20,446 nucleotides of DNA from a virus. The notes under the pieces were generated by a model. That model was not told the DNA's origin. It saw only the letters and a program-made list of their open reading frames with translations, and made no database searches. A program made the translations under genes and the position numbers. The stretch lies in the IMG/VR virus record IMGVR_UViG_3300032046_002115, positions 1-20,446 of that record; one strand, given 5' to 3'. Position 1 is the stretch's first letter. Each line of letters begins with the position of its first letter. Shown piece by piece: positions 1,309 through 19,373 of this stretch.

Positions 1309-4300
1309 ATATCAACGACCTAACCATCAAATTAAAAAATTACTTAACCCAATCTGGGCGTAATTTGAGTGCTTGGAAACAAGTCGTTTCTCAACCTCAA
1401 TTAAGGCAGGAATATAGACAACAGATAATTCAACCTAAAGTTCAACAAGTTAGTAATTATGTAAAACCAATTCTTCAACAACAATACTCACCAAGAAATA
1501 TAATTAAAATGGTAATGCCTCAAATAAGTGGAGCAAGGATGTTACCTCAAGTGGGCAGGCAAATGATGAAAATTCCCCAAGCTCCAGAGTTAGTTGGGCC
1601 AACTCTTAAAGCGGGGCCAACAAGAGTTCCCATTCTTGGCCCAATTCAACAAGCCCCGAGATTCCTTACAGAAAGCATTAAGAGTTATGGAAGAACCCTA
1701 GCTGAACCACAAAAACACCCACTGGAAACCGCCTTGAATGTTTTGCCATTTTTACCAATGGGAAGATTAAAGGCAATTTTGCCAAAGGGTAAAATCAAAA
1801 TCAAACCAACAATAGGTGAAATTGCCGATTATGAAAGCAGAGCTTTAGCAGAAGCAAGAAGTGAGCTAAAAGCTATGGAAATGGCTAATCCTGACCAACA
1901 ATTGTTTGGTAAAATGCGTAATTTTCTACGCTTTGCTGGTGAGAAAACAAGCAGGGAAACAGGCGAACTTTTTAGAGAGCATATTCCCAGAAGGGTTTTT
2001 GGCGAATCAAGTGATGAATTGGCTTCTTCTATGGGAATAACCGAGAATGGCTTAATGGCTAAATTAACAGAAAATTTACCAATGGCAGGGGAAACGAGGG
2101 GGGTTATTTCTTTGCCAAGGATAAGCAAGAGAGCCAAAGATTTGTATGAAAAGTTAGATCCGCAATTTTACAAGACTATTAGGGATGTTTTTAATAAAGT
2201 TGAAGCTGTTTCTGCCAAAGTTATTCCATTCCAACTAGCCCAAAAACGAGCACAGACCGCCGAACAAATAGCAAAACAAAGTTATCGAGAATGGCAATCT
2301 AGTTTATTTAAGCAAGAAGGTGTAAGAACCACCAGAGGAGCAGTTGAGACAGCCATAAAAGGGATAAAAGAAAAAACCATTTCTCCACTTTCGAGTGATG
2401 TTGAGAACCTAAAAGACATAAGTGGATTTTCAGGGGGAATGAGGGATATTTACAGAAACTTTAAGGCAGTTTTCGGTCAAAAGATTGGAGTTGCTAAGAG
2501 ATTAGTTCTTGATCCCTTTGATAAATCTAAGGGTGAGTTTATAGATGAGCTTAACCAATGGACAGGCACTTTGGAAAACTATGTAGGCAAAAAATTAGGT
2601 ATTAGAAAAGGAAGCCTTGAGAGTGCGGCAGTTCAGGAATTTGGCGAGAAAACTTTATCAGAAGCCGATTTACTAAGAAAGTTTGGTATCCAAAAGACAA
2701 AAAACATTATTGAGGCTGACAATTGGTTCAGGCAGTCATATAACCAACTTCTTGATGAAGTTAATGCGGTTCGGGCCAAGATTTATCCCAACGACCCAAC
2801 TAAAATTATCCCTCGCCGTCAAGACTACTATCGGCATTTTAGGGAGTTAGCTCAAGGTTTCCGAGGTCTAGCTAATATTTTCGATGTGCCAGCTAATATT
2901 GCTTCTCCTCTTTCTGGTATTTCTGAATTTACTAAACCAAAAGCAAAATGGTTATCATTTGCCCAAAGAAGACTAGGTTTAGGAACAGATATAGACGCAG
3001 TGGGTGGATTCTTGGATTATATTAAGGCTTCCTCTTATGCTAAGCATATTGACCCCAATATACCCAAGTTTAGAGCCCTAGCAGATGAGTTAGCACAGGC
3101 TACTAGTGAAGGAACTCTTTATCGTGGAAAACTTAATAACTTTATTGAGTTTTTACACGACTTCTCTAATGATTTGGCGGGTAAAACCAACCCCCTTGAT
3201 AGAACTTTACAGAAATGGATTCCTGGTGGGAGAAAGACTTTTAGAGTTATTAACTGGATGAACAGCCGAGTGAAAGCTAATGTGATGTTAGGTAATGCTT
3301 CTGCTTCACTAGCCCAGATATTCAATGTTCCTCAAGGAATGGCCAATGTTCAAAATCCTAAGTATTGGATTAAAGGAATAGGAAAAACCCTTGCCTCAAT
3401 GTTTGTTAAAAATAGACCAATGGAAAATTCTGTTTTTATTAAAGAAAGATATTTTAAGGCTTTTGATAAATTTAATCGTGGCTTATTGTATCAACCTTAT
3501 AGATTTACCAAGTGGATGATAACCGCCCTGGATGAAGTTGGAACAAAATATATTTGGAATATGTCTTATGACAAAGCTTTGGATATGGGGATTACCAATG
3601 CTACTAAATATGCTGATGATATTGCTCGCAGTATGGTTGCTGGTCGAGGGATAGGTGAAGTGCCACTTGCCCAAAAATCAAGACTTTTCCAGATGATTGC
3701 TCCTTTCCAAATTGAGGTTACTAATCTCTGGTGGGTAATGAAGGATTTTATTGACGAAAGGGCTTTCGGTAAAATTGCCACCTTATTTGTCTTTAATCAT
3801 CTTTTTAACAATGCGGCAGAAAGGATAAGGGGTTCGAGAGTAACTTTTGATCCAATTCAAGCAACACTTGAAGCAATAAATACTTTCCAGCAAGAAGAGA
3901 GTAAAGGAAAAGGAGCTTTGATGGCCGGAGGGCGATTAGTGGGTGAGGTTCTTTCAAATATCCCTGTGGGTCAAACCTTTGGGGCAATGTACCCTGAATA
4001 TGGTTTTAAAATTGGTGAAACTCAATACCCCACAAGAAAACAATTTTTTGGTAGAGAAGACCCGACAAGGTTTGGTGGTGGAATTTTAGTTACAAGGGGA
4101 ATAACTGATCCACTTTATAAACTTCTTCCTCCTTATGGCGGACAGCAGATTAAGAGAACAATTGGGGGTTTAGGAGCTTATGGCAAGGGTTATGCCGAGA
4201 GTGCTAAAGGATTAGTTCAATATCCAATAGAAAAAAAGCTTACTAATCTTTTACAGGCGGGAACTTTTGGTAAAACCGCATTGCCAGAAGCCCAAAAATA

Positions 4301-4686: not shown

Positions 4687-4827
4687 ATGGCTAAAAAGAA
4701 ATCATTAGCATCTATCCTCGCTTTATACAAGAAATATGGGGTGAAACCCATTAGTTTAAAGATACCTAAATCTAAGTTTAAGATGCCCAAGTTTTCTAAA
4801 ATTAGTTTTAAGGGGGGTAAAAAATGA
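4687..4827 (+). CDS. Tiny hyperbasic protein (46 aa)
   Basis: A very good ribosome site (AGGAGG at 4673-4678, eight bases before the ATG) supports this short gene. Its stop overlaps the next ATG (ATGA). The product begins MAKKKSLASILALYKK and ends with Lys-rich repeats of the type K-[IM]-P-K-[SF]. It has about 15 lysines and almost no acidic residues, so it should bind nucleic acid, acidic protein surfaces or membrane lipids. No family is recognised. It sits between the giant protein and a holin-like protein. Confidence 0.72.
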   Translation: MAKKKSLASILALYKKYGVKPISLKIPKSKFKMPKFSKISFKGGKK

Positions 4828-5075
4828 ATAATAATAATAATTTTAAACTATCAACAGCCGAATTCAAAGGAAATGTTATCGCCCAATTATCAGAAATTCG
4901 TGGTGATTTGACTACCATTAGAGAATTTATTGAGTCAAACAGCATCCGAATTACATCTCTGGAAATGTGGCGGTCTAATCTGATGGGCAAAATAACTCTC
5001 GCTGTTGGAATTTTTAGTTTAGCTTTTACTTGTTTATGGCAGTGGATTCTTAAAAAGTTTGTAAATCCCAATTAG
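4824..5075 (+). CDS. XhlA-like small membrane protein, holin candidate
   Basis: This 83-residue protein has an amphipathic helical N-terminus (about 10-50, heptad-like, containing EFKGNVIAQLSEIRGDL). One hydrophobic segment follows at about 55-75 (ITLAVGIFSLAFTCLWQWIL), then a short basic tail. The layout of coiled coil, Trp-containing turn, a single TM helix and Lys/Arg end matches the XhlA/hemolysin-type proteins often found in phage lysis cassettes. The start overlaps the previous stop as ATGA, and GGGGGG at about 4813-4818 can serve as ribosome site. The next gene is a peptidase that could be the endolysin, so a holin or membrane-anchor role in lysis is plausible. Motif-level resemblance only. 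Confidence 0.68.
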   Translation: MNNNNNFKLSTAEFKGNVIAQLSEIRGDLTTIREFIESNSIRITSLEMWRSNLMGKITLAVGIFSLAFTCLWQWILKKFVNPN

Positions 5076-5087
5076 ATGTGTTATAAT
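5059..5087 (+). promoter_or_regulatory. Sigma70-like promoter before the lysis peptidase
   Basis: TTGTAA (5059-5064), a 17-base spacer and a perfect TATAAT (5082-5087) preceded by TGT, an extended -10. The -35 lies in the last codons of the upstream gene. Expected start of transcription is about 5094. The downstream leader shares words with the leader before the portal gene. Confidence 0.75.
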
Positions 5088-5120
5088 GTAATTTAACCTA
5101 GAACTCATCGTTGATTCGAG

Positions 5121-5159
5121 AGAGCCGGTTAACCCAAAGGGGTTTCCGACTCTTTTTTT
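5121..5159 (+). terminator. Intrinsic terminator / attenuator in leader of lysis peptidase
   Basis: The stem AGAG-C-CGG pairs with CCG-A-CTCT (5121-5128 with 5146-5153), with one C/A mismatch. An inner stem AACCC/GGGTT (5131-5135, 5140-5144) closes an AAAG loop. Seven Ts (5153-5159) follow. It lies about 30 bases downstream of the predicted transcription start and 14 bases before the ATG at 5174. It would stop both read-through from the upstream operon and transcripts from the local promoter, so it probably works as a conditional attenuator. CTAGAA (5098-5103) and ATTCGAG (5114-5120), shared with the second leader, precede it. Confidence 0.72.
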
Positions 5160-5173
5160 GTTGGTTTAAAAAA

Positions 5174-6004
5174 ATGATACCATTATCTCAACGAGATTCA
5201 CGCTGGAAAGATATTAAATTAGGGACTTCTTCAACTACAATCGGTGGTTATGGTTGTGTTATTGCTGGATTAGCCATAATGGTCGATACTACCCCAGATA
5301 TAGTTAATCAGAAATTATTAGAGGTTGGTGGTTATTCTCAAGGGAATCTAGTTGTTTGGGCTAAAGTCAACCAAGCTCTACCTTCTTTAAACTTTATTAA
5401 GAGAGCCTATTCTTATTCAAACGATATTGTTAAAAAAGCTATTGATGATTATGGTGCTTGTCTAGTAGAGGTAGATGGAAAAAAGATTGGTGGAGTTAAA
5501 CATTGGGTATTATATATTGGTAATCAACAAATAATTGACCCTTGGTGGGGTGATATTCGCTCCACCTCTGAATATCCGCCTTTGGGTTATGCCGTGTTTG
5601 AAATAAAAAAGGAGGTTAATTATGAACAAGAACTTAAAGATAAGATTTCAGATTTGGAAACTAAAGTGGCAACTCTTAATCAAGCGGTGGCAACAAAATC
5701 ATTGGAAGTCAATAATTTACGAACAGAGCTTGAAACTCAAGAACGAGATAATGCGGACTTGGGAAAACAAATCAAAGAAGCTCGGAGTCAAAGAGAACAA
5801 TTTAGAGTCGAAGCCGAAATGTGGCAAAAAAAGGCCTTTGATTTAGAAAACCAGCTAAATAGTGCTTTAACCGAGAATAATGCCCTGAAGGGGTCAATAA
5901 ATGACTTAAATAAAGCGATAAAAGATAGTCAAGCCTTGGCATTAAGTAAAGTTGATACTGGTCTAGTTATTAAAGAACTATTCTATCGTTTTTTTAAAAG
6001 GTGA
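5174..6004 (+). CDS. C39-like cysteine peptidase with coiled-coil tail, endolysin candidate
   Basis: This 276-residue protein has an N-terminal papain-fold domain of the peptidase C39-like type (residues 1-145). It shows Q6 with D8 and W11 in the pattern Q-x-D-x-x-W, nucleophile C28 in GYGC, H110 in KHWVLYIG and D122 in IIDPWWGD. That is the full Gln-Cys-His-Asp set for cleaving peptide or amide bonds, in a phage most likely in peptidoglycan. Residues 150-265 form a long heptad-rich coiled coil unlike usual cell-wall-binding modules. No signal peptide is seen, so release would need a holin; holin-like genes lie on both sides. The start is ATG 5174. An earlier in-frame TTG (5111) lies inside the leader hairpin region and adds no domain residues. 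No Shine-Dalgarno precedes 5174. Its target bond is not determinable. Confidence 0.78.
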   Translation: MIPLSQRDSRWKDIKLGTSSTTIGGYGCVIAGLAIMVDTTPDIVNQKLLEVGGYSQGNLVVWAKVNQALPSLNFIKRAYSYSNDIVKKAIDDYGACLVEVDGKKIGGVKHWVLYIGNQQIIDPWWGDIRSTSEYPPLGYAVFEIKKEVNYEQELKDKISDLETKVATLNQAVATKSLEVNNLRTELETQERDNADLGKQIKEARSQREQFRVEAEMWQKKAFDLENQLNSALTENNALKGSINDLNKAIKDSQALALSKVDTGLVIKELFYRFFKR

Positions 6005-16991: not shown

Positions 16992-17006
16992 GAAAGGAGG
17001 TTAAAT

Positions 17007-17225
17007 ATAAACGAATTGGATTTAACTGACAAAATAATTAAGAGTGAAACGGGTCTTAACGACTTATTACAAGAATATTGGGAAAAAACGGGAAAAGTTC
17101 CAACAAAGATTTATGTTACTTATAAACAGAGAAAAACTATTTTAGACTTTTCATCTCCCTTAGATATTCCGAGATTAAAAACACCTAAATATAATGAAAG
17201 TCTAATAATAGTTAAACATAAATAA
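17007..17225 (+). CDS. Small protein with unusual (ATA or TTG) start
   Basis: A perfect AAGGAGG (16994-17000) precedes this frame. ATA at 17007 is six bases away, the ideal spacing. The next usual start, TTG 17016, is 15 bases away. The product (about 70 residues) reads NELDLTDKIIKSETGLNDLL and continues with a Lys/Tyr-rich beta-like part (TKIYVTYKQRKTILDF). No ATG start is available. Coding is supported by the ribosome site and gene order. Function unknown. Confidence 0.55.
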   Translation: MNELDLTDKIIKSETGLNDLLQEYWEKTGKVPTKIYVTYKQRKTILDFSSPLDIPRLKTPKYNESLIIVKHK

Positions 17226-17235
17226 TTTATAGTTA

Positions 17236-17264
17236 TTGACAATTTCGGTTTAATTTAATATAAT
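17236..17264 (+). promoter_or_regulatory. Perfect consensus sigma70 promoter before the portal gene
   Basis: TTGACA (17236-17241), a 17-base spacer and TATAAT (17259-17264) are both full consensus with optimal spacing. Transcription should start near 17271. It lies in the gap between a small gene and the portal gene. Confidence 0.88.
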
Positions 17265-17294
17265 AGGTCATTAAACGCTAGAATTGTATTCGAG

Positions 17295-17321
17295 GCGGAG
17301 TCGTAAGACTTCGCTTTTTTT
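17295..17321 (+). terminator. Intrinsic terminator / attenuator just before the portal ATG
   Basis: GCGGAGTC (17295-17302) pairs with GACTTCGC (17307-17314) over eight base pairs including one G-U, with loop GTAA. Seven Ts (17315-17321) follow and touch the portal ATG at 17322. CTAGAA (17278-17283) and ATTCGAG (17288-17294) precede it, as in the leader at 5098-5120. It is only about 25 bases from the predicted transcription start, so most transcripts should stop here unless antitermination occurs. Confidence 0.8.
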
Positions 17322-19373
17322 ATGGCTTTAGATAACTTAATCATCACTGGCTCACCTCAAGAACAAAAACGCTTCACCGAGTGTAATTCTCACTATTCTA
17401 TGTCCAAACAGGATTTACAACAAAGAATTCAACGGAAGAATGGCTTTGATGATGCGGATAAGTTATATGCTTCTTTTATTGACGAGAAGAACTGGCCTTA
17501 CAAATCAATGATGTTTGACCCTCGCCCCTATACCGTCATTATCGAAAAGTCTGCCAGACTTATCGGTAGTAAACCCAAGGGGCACTTAGTCGCCAGAGAG
17601 GGTGGGGATACCCTTGGAGCCTACATTAACAACGAACTTCTATCTTTCCAATGGGATGATAACTCAAGACTAGGGGAATCAATGATTTCTAAGTGGATTA
17701 TGATGGATCAGAATACTAGAAAGTATGGTTCTTCCTTTGCGATTACTAAATGGAGATATGAAACACGAATAAAAGATGGCAAAAAACAGGTCTATTTTGA
17801 TGGCAATGACTTTAAAGTCTGCGACCCAAGAAATGTCTTAGCCAATCCTTCCTATACTTTTATCAACAAATGGTTTCAATATCGGGAATATACCACGATG
17901 GATGAGTTGGAAAAGGTCAATGATACCGCCAAATCAGCCCCTATCTATAAAAATTTGGAACAATTAAGGACTTCTTTGAAAGAAGAAGCCAAAGCCAAAG
18001 GTGATAAGCGTTCAACTCAATATGTTAATCAGAATAAATCAATTCGAGGTTTAACTGATACTATGGGGGAAGATATTGTTTATCCCCCTATTGAGATAGT
18101 AACGGAATATCGACCCGACAGATGGATTACTTTCTGTCCAAGACATGGCGTCATTATTCGGGATATACCCAATCCTTATAAACATGGCGAAATACCAGTC
18201 GTTCATTTAAAATATTATCCTTTACCTGATGATTTATATGGGGTTTCGGAGTTTGAACCCGTCAGCAAGCAGTTTAAGGGCATTAATTGTCTCTTTAGTC
18301 AGTATATTGACAACATTACGGTTGATTTATATCCACCCTTAATGGTTAATCCCGTCAATGTCAGAATGCACACTTTAGAGTTCACCCCTGAAGCCAAATG
18401 GTTAATGAATAACCCTGGTGTTGATGTTAAGAGATTAGAAACTTCAACGGCTGCGACTAATAATTTTCAATCCGCCTACGCCTTAATGGTCGGTAGTTTG
18501 ATGAATGCTTTAGGTGAGCAATCACAACAAATGAGTGCGGTTAATCCTTTTCAACAGCAAGGTAAAGTTACGGCCACCGAGATTAGAGATACCGCTTTTA
18601 CAAGGAATGTCAGGGATAATATGAACCAAATTTTCCTGTCTGAAGCCTTAAAGAAGCAAATTATGTTCTGGCATTCGATGAATCAACAATTTATGTTCTC
18701 CGGCAAGACAGAAAAGGTTAGGATTATCAGAATTGTCGGTAAGGACGCTATTAACTTCTTTACCAATCAAGGTTTAAGCGATATTCGACCAACGGCTAAA
18801 GATGTCGAAGATGTGGCTAATGGCTTGTTAAAACAAGAGGATATACAACCAGGACCAGTCTTTGGAGTTCAACAAGGTAATAAGGTTGTGCCTAAATTTC
18901 AACCCGACCAATTAGGTCAAGGAGGTAATCTTTATATTGAACAAGGTGATTTATTGGGTAGTTATGACTATATTCCTGATATTGAATCAATGAAAGCCCC
19001 ATCTGATGAAGATGTGGAAGCAAAGATGGCTGGTGTGTTAGGGGTTTTGAAAGACCCAGTTATTCTTCAAGGTTTGGCTGCCGAAGGTAAAAGACCAAAG
19101 TTTCAGGATATTTTAGTTAAATTATTTGAATCTACAAAAATTATTAAAGACGCTGATGCCTATTTTGAGGAAATACCTCAAGCACCAGTAATTTCAGGTC
19201 AAGGAGGTATAAATGGCCAAGGTCAAGTTAACCAAGGAGGAATCCCAACTCCAGGAGCAGGGATACCTAATCAAGGAGCTAATCCAAACCAAAGGATGGT
19301 TGGAAGTCCTCAAGCCATGGTTGGAGGACAAAATCCACAACTCGTGGGTGGACCCCCGCAGTTTCAAGGATGA
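17322..19373 (+). CDS. Portal protein
   Basis: This 683-residue protein follows TerL and two small genes. The N-terminal half has the portal-like pattern of an aromatic/basic start, SMMFDPRPYTVIIEKSARLI, and a clip/stem region (QFKGINCLFSQYIDNITVDL, YPPLMVNPVNV), then long helices and a 'QQGKVTATEIRDTAFTRNV' helix typical of portal wing/crown parts. The last 60 residues are low-complexity Gly/Gln/Pro/Asn and partly overlap another gene. It would form the dodecameric ring through which DNA enters and leaves the capsid. The start ATG 17322 has no Shine-Dalgarno and directly follows a T-tract. An internal ATG (17400) also lacks one. The family assignment rests on size, position and general pattern. 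Confidence 0.8.
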   Translation: MALDNLIITGSPQEQKRFTECNSHYSMSKQDLQQRIQRKNGFDDADKLYASFIDEKNWPYKSMMFDPRPYTVIIEKSARLIGSKPKGHLVAREGGDTLGAYINNELLSFQWDDNSRLGESMISKWIMMDQNTRKYGSSFAITKWRYETRIKDGKKQVYFDGNDFKVCDPRNVLANPSYTFINKWFQYREYTTMDELEKVNDTAKSAPIYKNLEQLRTSLKEEAKAKGDKRSTQYVNQNKSIRGLTDTMGEDIVYPPIEIVTEYRPDRWITFCPRHGVIIRDIPNPYKHGEIPVVHLKYYPLPDDLYGVSEFEPVSKQFKGINCLFSQYIDNITVDLYPPLMVNPVNVRMHTLEFTPEAKWLMNNPGVDVKRLETSTAATNNFQSAYALMVGSLMNALGEQSQQMSAVNPFQQQGKVTATEIRDTAFTRNVRDNMNQIFLSEALKKQIMFWHSMNQQFMFSGKTEKVRIIRIVGKDAINFFTNQGLSDIRPTAKDVEDVANGLLKQEDIQPGPVFGVQQGNKVVPKFQPDQLGQGGNLYIEQGDLLGSYDYIPDIESMKAPSDEDVEAKMAGVLGVLKDPVILQGLAAEGKRPKFQDILVKLFESTKIIKDADAYFEEIPQAPVISGQGGINGQGQVNQGGIPTPGAGIPNQGANPNQRMVGSPQAMVGGQNPQLVGGPPQFQG

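Follow-up and report, generated by a model that had tools for sequence, protein, structure and literature searches.

How can a phage express a gene whose start codon is joined directly to an intrinsic terminator? This question is raised by the window, the whole stretch of 20,446 nucleotides analysed here (positions 1 to 20,446 of IMG/VR record IMGVR_UViG_3300032046_002115). On its + strand a hairpin at 17292..17317 (GAGGCGGAGTC-GTAA-GACTTCGCTTT, with GTAA as the loop) runs into a T7 tract at 17315..17321, which shares the last three T of the stem and lies immediately 5' of ATG 17322. This codon opens the portal protein gene (17322..19373, +, 683 aa), located after TerS and TerL. An earlier sequence-only reading had described the succession of hairpin, seven T and ATG, and the sequence agrees. 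It had also called the hairpin perfect, which holds insofar as its 11 pairs include zero mismatches, although three of them are G-U. The dilemma it saw is real: transcription either stops before the start codon or reads through into a message whose stem adjoins the start.

Could the terminator be a product of chance, or the true start lie elsewhere? The region 17270-17324 folds with -16.2 kcal/mol (z = -3.05 against shuffles), and 17292-17317 stands alone on the + strand of the window as a strong, near-perfect predicted intrinsic terminator (score 24), the next-best candidate scoring 17 and having no real T tract. Together with shuffled-sequence counts, these results rule out a chance terminator. 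The suggestion of a start elsewhere is not borne out either. The gene has PHROG connector/portal matches, the N-terminus of its product, MALDNLIITGSP, aligns with the MA...GTP/GSP of relatives, and portals of 40-70% identity align starting at ATG 17322; the alignment fixes this codon as the true and conserved portal start. The later Met at 17403 would lose the conserved N-terminal GTP/GSP..E..F segment and was rejected. The region just upstream holds a small extra gene (17016-17225), which lies after a conserved 105-aa gene and before the portal promoter and is missing at that place in several relatives. It has a strong Shine-Dalgarno sequence (SD), AGGAGG (16996-17001), 14 nt from the listed TTG start; the in-frame ATA at 17007 has a favourable distance to this SD and is a possible AUA start.

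The sequence-only reading overlooked two elements, a promoter and a second hairpin, which make the terminator a probable regulatory attenuator and not an oddity. The predicted promoter is of the sigma70 type, TTGACA-17 bp-TATAAT at 17236..17264 (+), and matches the consensus at 12 of 12 positions. From spacing, transcription would start at the A at 17270, 6 nt after the -10 box; an A is likewise enriched 7 nt 3' of the box in 25 of 35 aligned units. In relatives the -10 box is found at the same place and often TGn-extended, and the promoter alignment yielded no strong extra motif besides the -35, the -10 and the T/G-rich extended -10. Because this promoter lies just upstream, the terminator sits inside the 5' leader, about 50 nt into its own transcript. 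Its hairpin begins about 22 nt after the inferred start site, and the portal AUG follows at about +53 of a transcript starting near 17270.

The second hairpin, termed H1, is a candidate antiterminator at 17276..17297 (+). It consists of an outer stem CGCT (17276-17279) / GGCG (17294-17297), an internal loop A/GA, an inner stem GAAT/ATTC and a TGT loop. Since its outer stem is formed with the 5' arm of the terminator, H1 and the terminator are mutually exclusive, and the upstream arm of H1 resembles the terminator 3' arm because both pair with that same 5' arm. In nascent-RNA folding of the window sequence, H1 is the minimum free energy structure at 28-44 emerged nt, and the complete terminator does not form before 46 nt. 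At equilibrium the terminator by itself is much the more stable, with about -16 kcal/mol against -0.8 to -7 kcal/mol for H1, so that H1 must act kinetically or with help.

Is this overlap kept among relatives? These were gathered from IMG/VR by their portal protein, and in 27 portal leaders the outer stem co-varies with the terminator despite widely differing sequence. Outer-stem complementarity has a score of 276, against 126±19 in a shuffled control and 186±18 after an exchange of 5' flanks among loci (maximum 238; 0 of 2000 swaps reach the observed value). The swap test is conservative, since the flanks of close relatives pair with each other, and its weakness is that the limits of the H1 hairpin were set by hand. 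Double compensatory changes are found in the outer stem, for example CGUC/GACG in L004 versus CGCU/AGCG in L017, and the terminator 3' arm follows (CGUC and CGCU, respectively). The three arms read GGUUCU/AGAACU/GGUUCU in L046 and AUCUUU/AAGGAU/AUCUUU in L062. In nearer relatives the inner stem co-varies too, at three of its four pairs (AGAT/ATCT, GAAT/ATTC, GGAT/ATCC, AGGT/ACCT). The 5' base of the internal loop is A in all 14 hand-listed portal and non-portal instances, which carry 11 distinct outer arms; in the genomes G001 and G002 the loop is mostly 1x2 with A on its 5' side, and the outer arms vary between copies. A few loci have an outer stem of only 3 bp (L088, the portal of L023/G002 and the lysis copy of the window, described below). 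Comparison of these leaders thus finds an alternative structure that is exclusive with the terminator and marked by compensatory change, and it places an intrinsic terminator between the predicted promoter and the first gene, both of which are expected of an attenuator.

Among 44 portal start regions compared, 33 have their ATG 0-21 nt behind a terminator-like hairpin and 11 lack the unit; the classing was made by eye and fold with no single threshold, and one region (L057) has a shorter U run. The -10 box usually lies about 25-30 nt before the stem, and most relatives, to identities as low as about 40%, have promoter, H1 and terminator ahead of the portal. Exact abutment of U tract and ATG is rarer, with 4 of the 33 (the window, L046, L062 and L088). 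In two loci, L038 (~3410-3500) and L074 (~2900-2975), a tandem pair of terminators separates the promoter from the portal ATG. An exact-pattern leader scan of viral contigs also returned L011-L013, which have no promoter, terminator or gene start and were set aside as chance matches. In all, dozens of uncultivated phages show the succession of promoter, small competing hairpin, terminator and start codon in front of late genes. INPHARED holds no cultured relatives of the portal, and the terminase reaches only about 31%. No prophage or host link was found via the portal in GTDB genomes, nor did tRNAs offer clues to the host.

The unit is not confined to the portal: comparison along genomes shows it three to six times in several phages. 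Under a strict rule, promoter plus terminator occur 3 times in G001 (2 with H1), 6 times in G002 (3 with H1) and 5 times in G005 (2 with H1), against about 0 units in dinucleotide shuffles. A covariance model and scanners with looser rules give five or six units in G001, six or more in G002 and about three in G005, the fold-based scan also listing some likely chance matches, mainly in G005-G011. The copies examined nearly always adjoin the start of a gene with the same orientation. Among the genes behind them are portal and glycosyltransferase-like genes and others; portal, lysis and tail neighbours suggest that these are late genes. Several non-portal copies in related genomes also have the ATG abutting the U tract; a glycosyltransferase family 2-like gene stands behind such a copy in L101 (9425 onward) and in L104 (around 9088, - strand).

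The window itself has a second copy. Missed by the first scanner, which needed near-perfect stems, it was found by the fold-based scan and comprises a promoter TTGTAA-17-TATAAT with TG extension (5059..5087, +), an H1-like hairpin CTC-A-TCG(TTGATT)CGA-GA-GAG (5104..5124, +) and an interrupted terminator stem with its T7 tract (5118..5159, +; tract 5153-5159). The hairpin was recognised by inspection, its 3-bp outer stem being below the 4-bp limit of the scanner. A lysis-type peptidase gene (5174..6004, +) begins 14 nt after the T tract; it looks C39-like by eye and has no convincing Pfam match. The earlier remark that this start, too, has no Shine-Dalgarno is correct and has the same cause as at the portal, the second copy (5059-5159) that precedes the gene. 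Just before lies a gene (4824-5075) for an 83-aa protein with one C-terminal transmembrane-like hydrophobic segment, in a holin-like position and with no Pfam match.

How, then, would a ribosome start on these messages? At the portal no SD stands at a usable distance from ATG 17322, as had been noted; a 4-nt SD-like match, TAAG, lies inside the hairpin loop. Comparison with relatives shows this lack to be conserved: about 2 of the 33 terminator-bearing portals have a plausible SD (AGGA in L031, AAGG in L044). Relatives with a normal ribosome site, named beforehand as an argument against such a start, do exist, as L026/L054 and L041 have an ordinary SD upstream of the portal, but these loci lack the whole promoter-terminator unit and would make good controls. 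At least five SD-matching bases precede 8 of 24 genes in the window, compared with 11% of random single sites; SD use elsewhere in these phages is thus partial, and a missing SD is not extraordinary in itself. U-rich or S1-assisted initiation is a subject of work in E. coli (PMC3858243, PMC2176067).

Taken together, we favour, with somewhat better than even confidence, a promoter-proximal attenuator that opens the late (structural) operon and is followed by SD-independent initiation. The unit probably sets how much transcription passes the terminator. A host-type RNA polymerase would start at about 17270, and H1, as the first hairpin to emerge, would hold the base of the terminator 5' arm (GGCG) with its outer arm CGCU. 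With the polymerase at the U tract, H1 and the terminator 3' arm would compete for this 5' arm. If the terminator is completed, an RNA of ~50 nt would be released; if H1 persists, the polymerase would continue into the portal operon. In the read-through mRNA the AUG would stand directly or closely behind the U tract, and the ribosome may start there aided by this unpaired U-rich stretch. With several copies per genome, the same checkpoint could act on several late operons. That transcripts both end at the terminator and pass it is our inference, as is a shift of this balance by timing or by a factor from the phage or its host.

Against this attenuator stand the 11 of 44 portal regions without the unit and the tandem terminators of L038 and L074, which a single H1 switch cannot disarm. 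These tandem terminators need more than local competition and leave room for processive antitermination. In that reading a phage or host factor, or H1 itself like the put RNA of phage HK022, would modify the polymerase at the promoter or on H1 and enable it to pass both this terminator and those further along; the H1 overlap would then be compactness or an added safeguard. The order of promoter and terminator before late genes resembles lambda pR'-tR', and the conserved 1x2 internal loop with its A, seen in the first clade, could be a recognition site. We nevertheless judge this reading unlikely, if worth keeping in view: Q (PF06530) and NusG-family (PF02357) genes are absent from 14 phage records in searches whose controls were detected, the inner hairpin sequence varies between copies within one genome, and H1 falls well short of the ~70 nt of put RNA (PMC9378689). 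Nor does processive antitermination require the co-varying mutual exclusion that is seen.

The same co-variation is left without a reason if the leader is simply a compact gene start, in which a promoter and a terminator serving as insulator share a narrow gap, read-through is constitutive and partial, and the ATG abutment results from compaction. Phage genomes are compact, and the distance from U tract to ATG varies from 0 to 21 nt among portals; still, the place of an insulator is upstream of a promoter, and here the terminator comes about 22 nt past the start site; moreover the unit recurs at several late genes, which makes this account quite improbable. The ~50-nt RNA might instead be the conserved product, a phage small RNA, given that a strong promoter and terminator yield a discrete RNA and that close portal leaders keep the inner hairpin AGATTGTATCT. 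Between copies or distant relatives only the architecture is kept and not the sequence, and the copies examined nearly always adjoin a same-strand gene start, so that we give a small RNA very little weight. Hairpin-mediated SD bypass has been proposed for some T4 genes. Here GAGG (17292-17295) precedes most of the stem and by inspection would be brought to about 7 nt from the AUG in the folded window leader; it overlaps the stem base and H1, and spacing and sequence vary among relatives, leaving this idea barely credible.

For a widespread group of uncultivated phages in which no regulator can be recognised, the unit provides a cis element for late-gene timing that is concrete and testable. 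Attenuation is usually reported from individual bacterial operons, and the copies seen here suggest that a phage can employ it repeatedly along its genome. Their SD-less starts, joined to U tracts, also form a natural collection for work on SD-independent initiation. More tentatively, the units may represent a new class of late-gene control: RNA switches spread over the genome and close to their promoters, each setting a minimal two-part hairpin, with a sequence-free outer stem and a fixed A/NN internal loop, against an intrinsic terminator. They would be read by a phage factor or by polymerase speed, and translation would start at the AUG joined to the U tract.

How does the unit compare with known systems? 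In the BglG/SacY RAT, ANTAR targets, T-box and other leaders, a small hairpin overlaps the 5' arm of the terminator and is mutually exclusive with it. H1, with its internal loop, overlaps the terminator 5' arm in the same manner; unlike in those attenuators, the inner hairpin sequence is variable, several units occur per phage genome, the unit lies 25-30 nt from the -10 box and the start codon is at or near the U tract. A CAT_RBD gene, as for BglG/SacY, was found in 0 of 14 phage records (controls detected), and a host protein could still take this role. An ANTAR search of the phage records gave no match, its control search being equally silent, and one hairpin precedes the terminator here versus the dual hexaloop hairpins of ANTAR targets.

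Lambda pR'-tR' gives a short abortive RNA by default. As in our unit, a strong promoter stands ahead of late genes with an intrinsic terminator behind it, in lambda together with Q. Here, by contrast, only ~22 nt separate the start site from the terminator hairpin, a second hairpin competes with the terminator, and genomes have several copies; the absence of PF06530 noted above concerns that Q family only. Lambda-type Q antitermination also uses a QBE and a -10-like pause element in the initially transcribed region, and the promoter alignment gave no strong motif beyond those named above. HK022 put is likewise a promoter-proximal phage RNA structure before terminators, of about 70 nt with two stem-loops that bind the polymerase beta' zinc-binding domain (PMC9378689). 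In contrast, the leader here is about 50 nt long, with one ~22-nt hairpin overlapping the terminator, which is itself the second stem, and thus has no put-type two-stem RNA. The LoaP/dfn leader also has a small hairpin upstream of an intrinsic terminator, and LoaP depends on both a UNCG-type hairpin and a NusG paralogue (PMC12691694). The loops here are not UNCG, and none of the 14 phage records yielded a NusG-family gene, with controls detected in 10.

Rfam gave no match at gathering score, and our literature searches, whose coverage did not extend to the original T4 PeSL papers, found no description of this unit. PeSLs are early promoters with a stem-loop in T4-type phages, regarded as recombination cassettes, and we know of no competing antiterminator hairpin in them. 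To judge from a title cited in PMC4503421, which speaks of 'composite conserved promoter-terminator motifs', they resemble our units as recurrent intergenic cassettes of promoter and stem-loop in phage genomes. Compared by description only, the PeSL is the nearest known cassette, and we file the element as an attenuator leader, a kind itself known, of which this variant is new.
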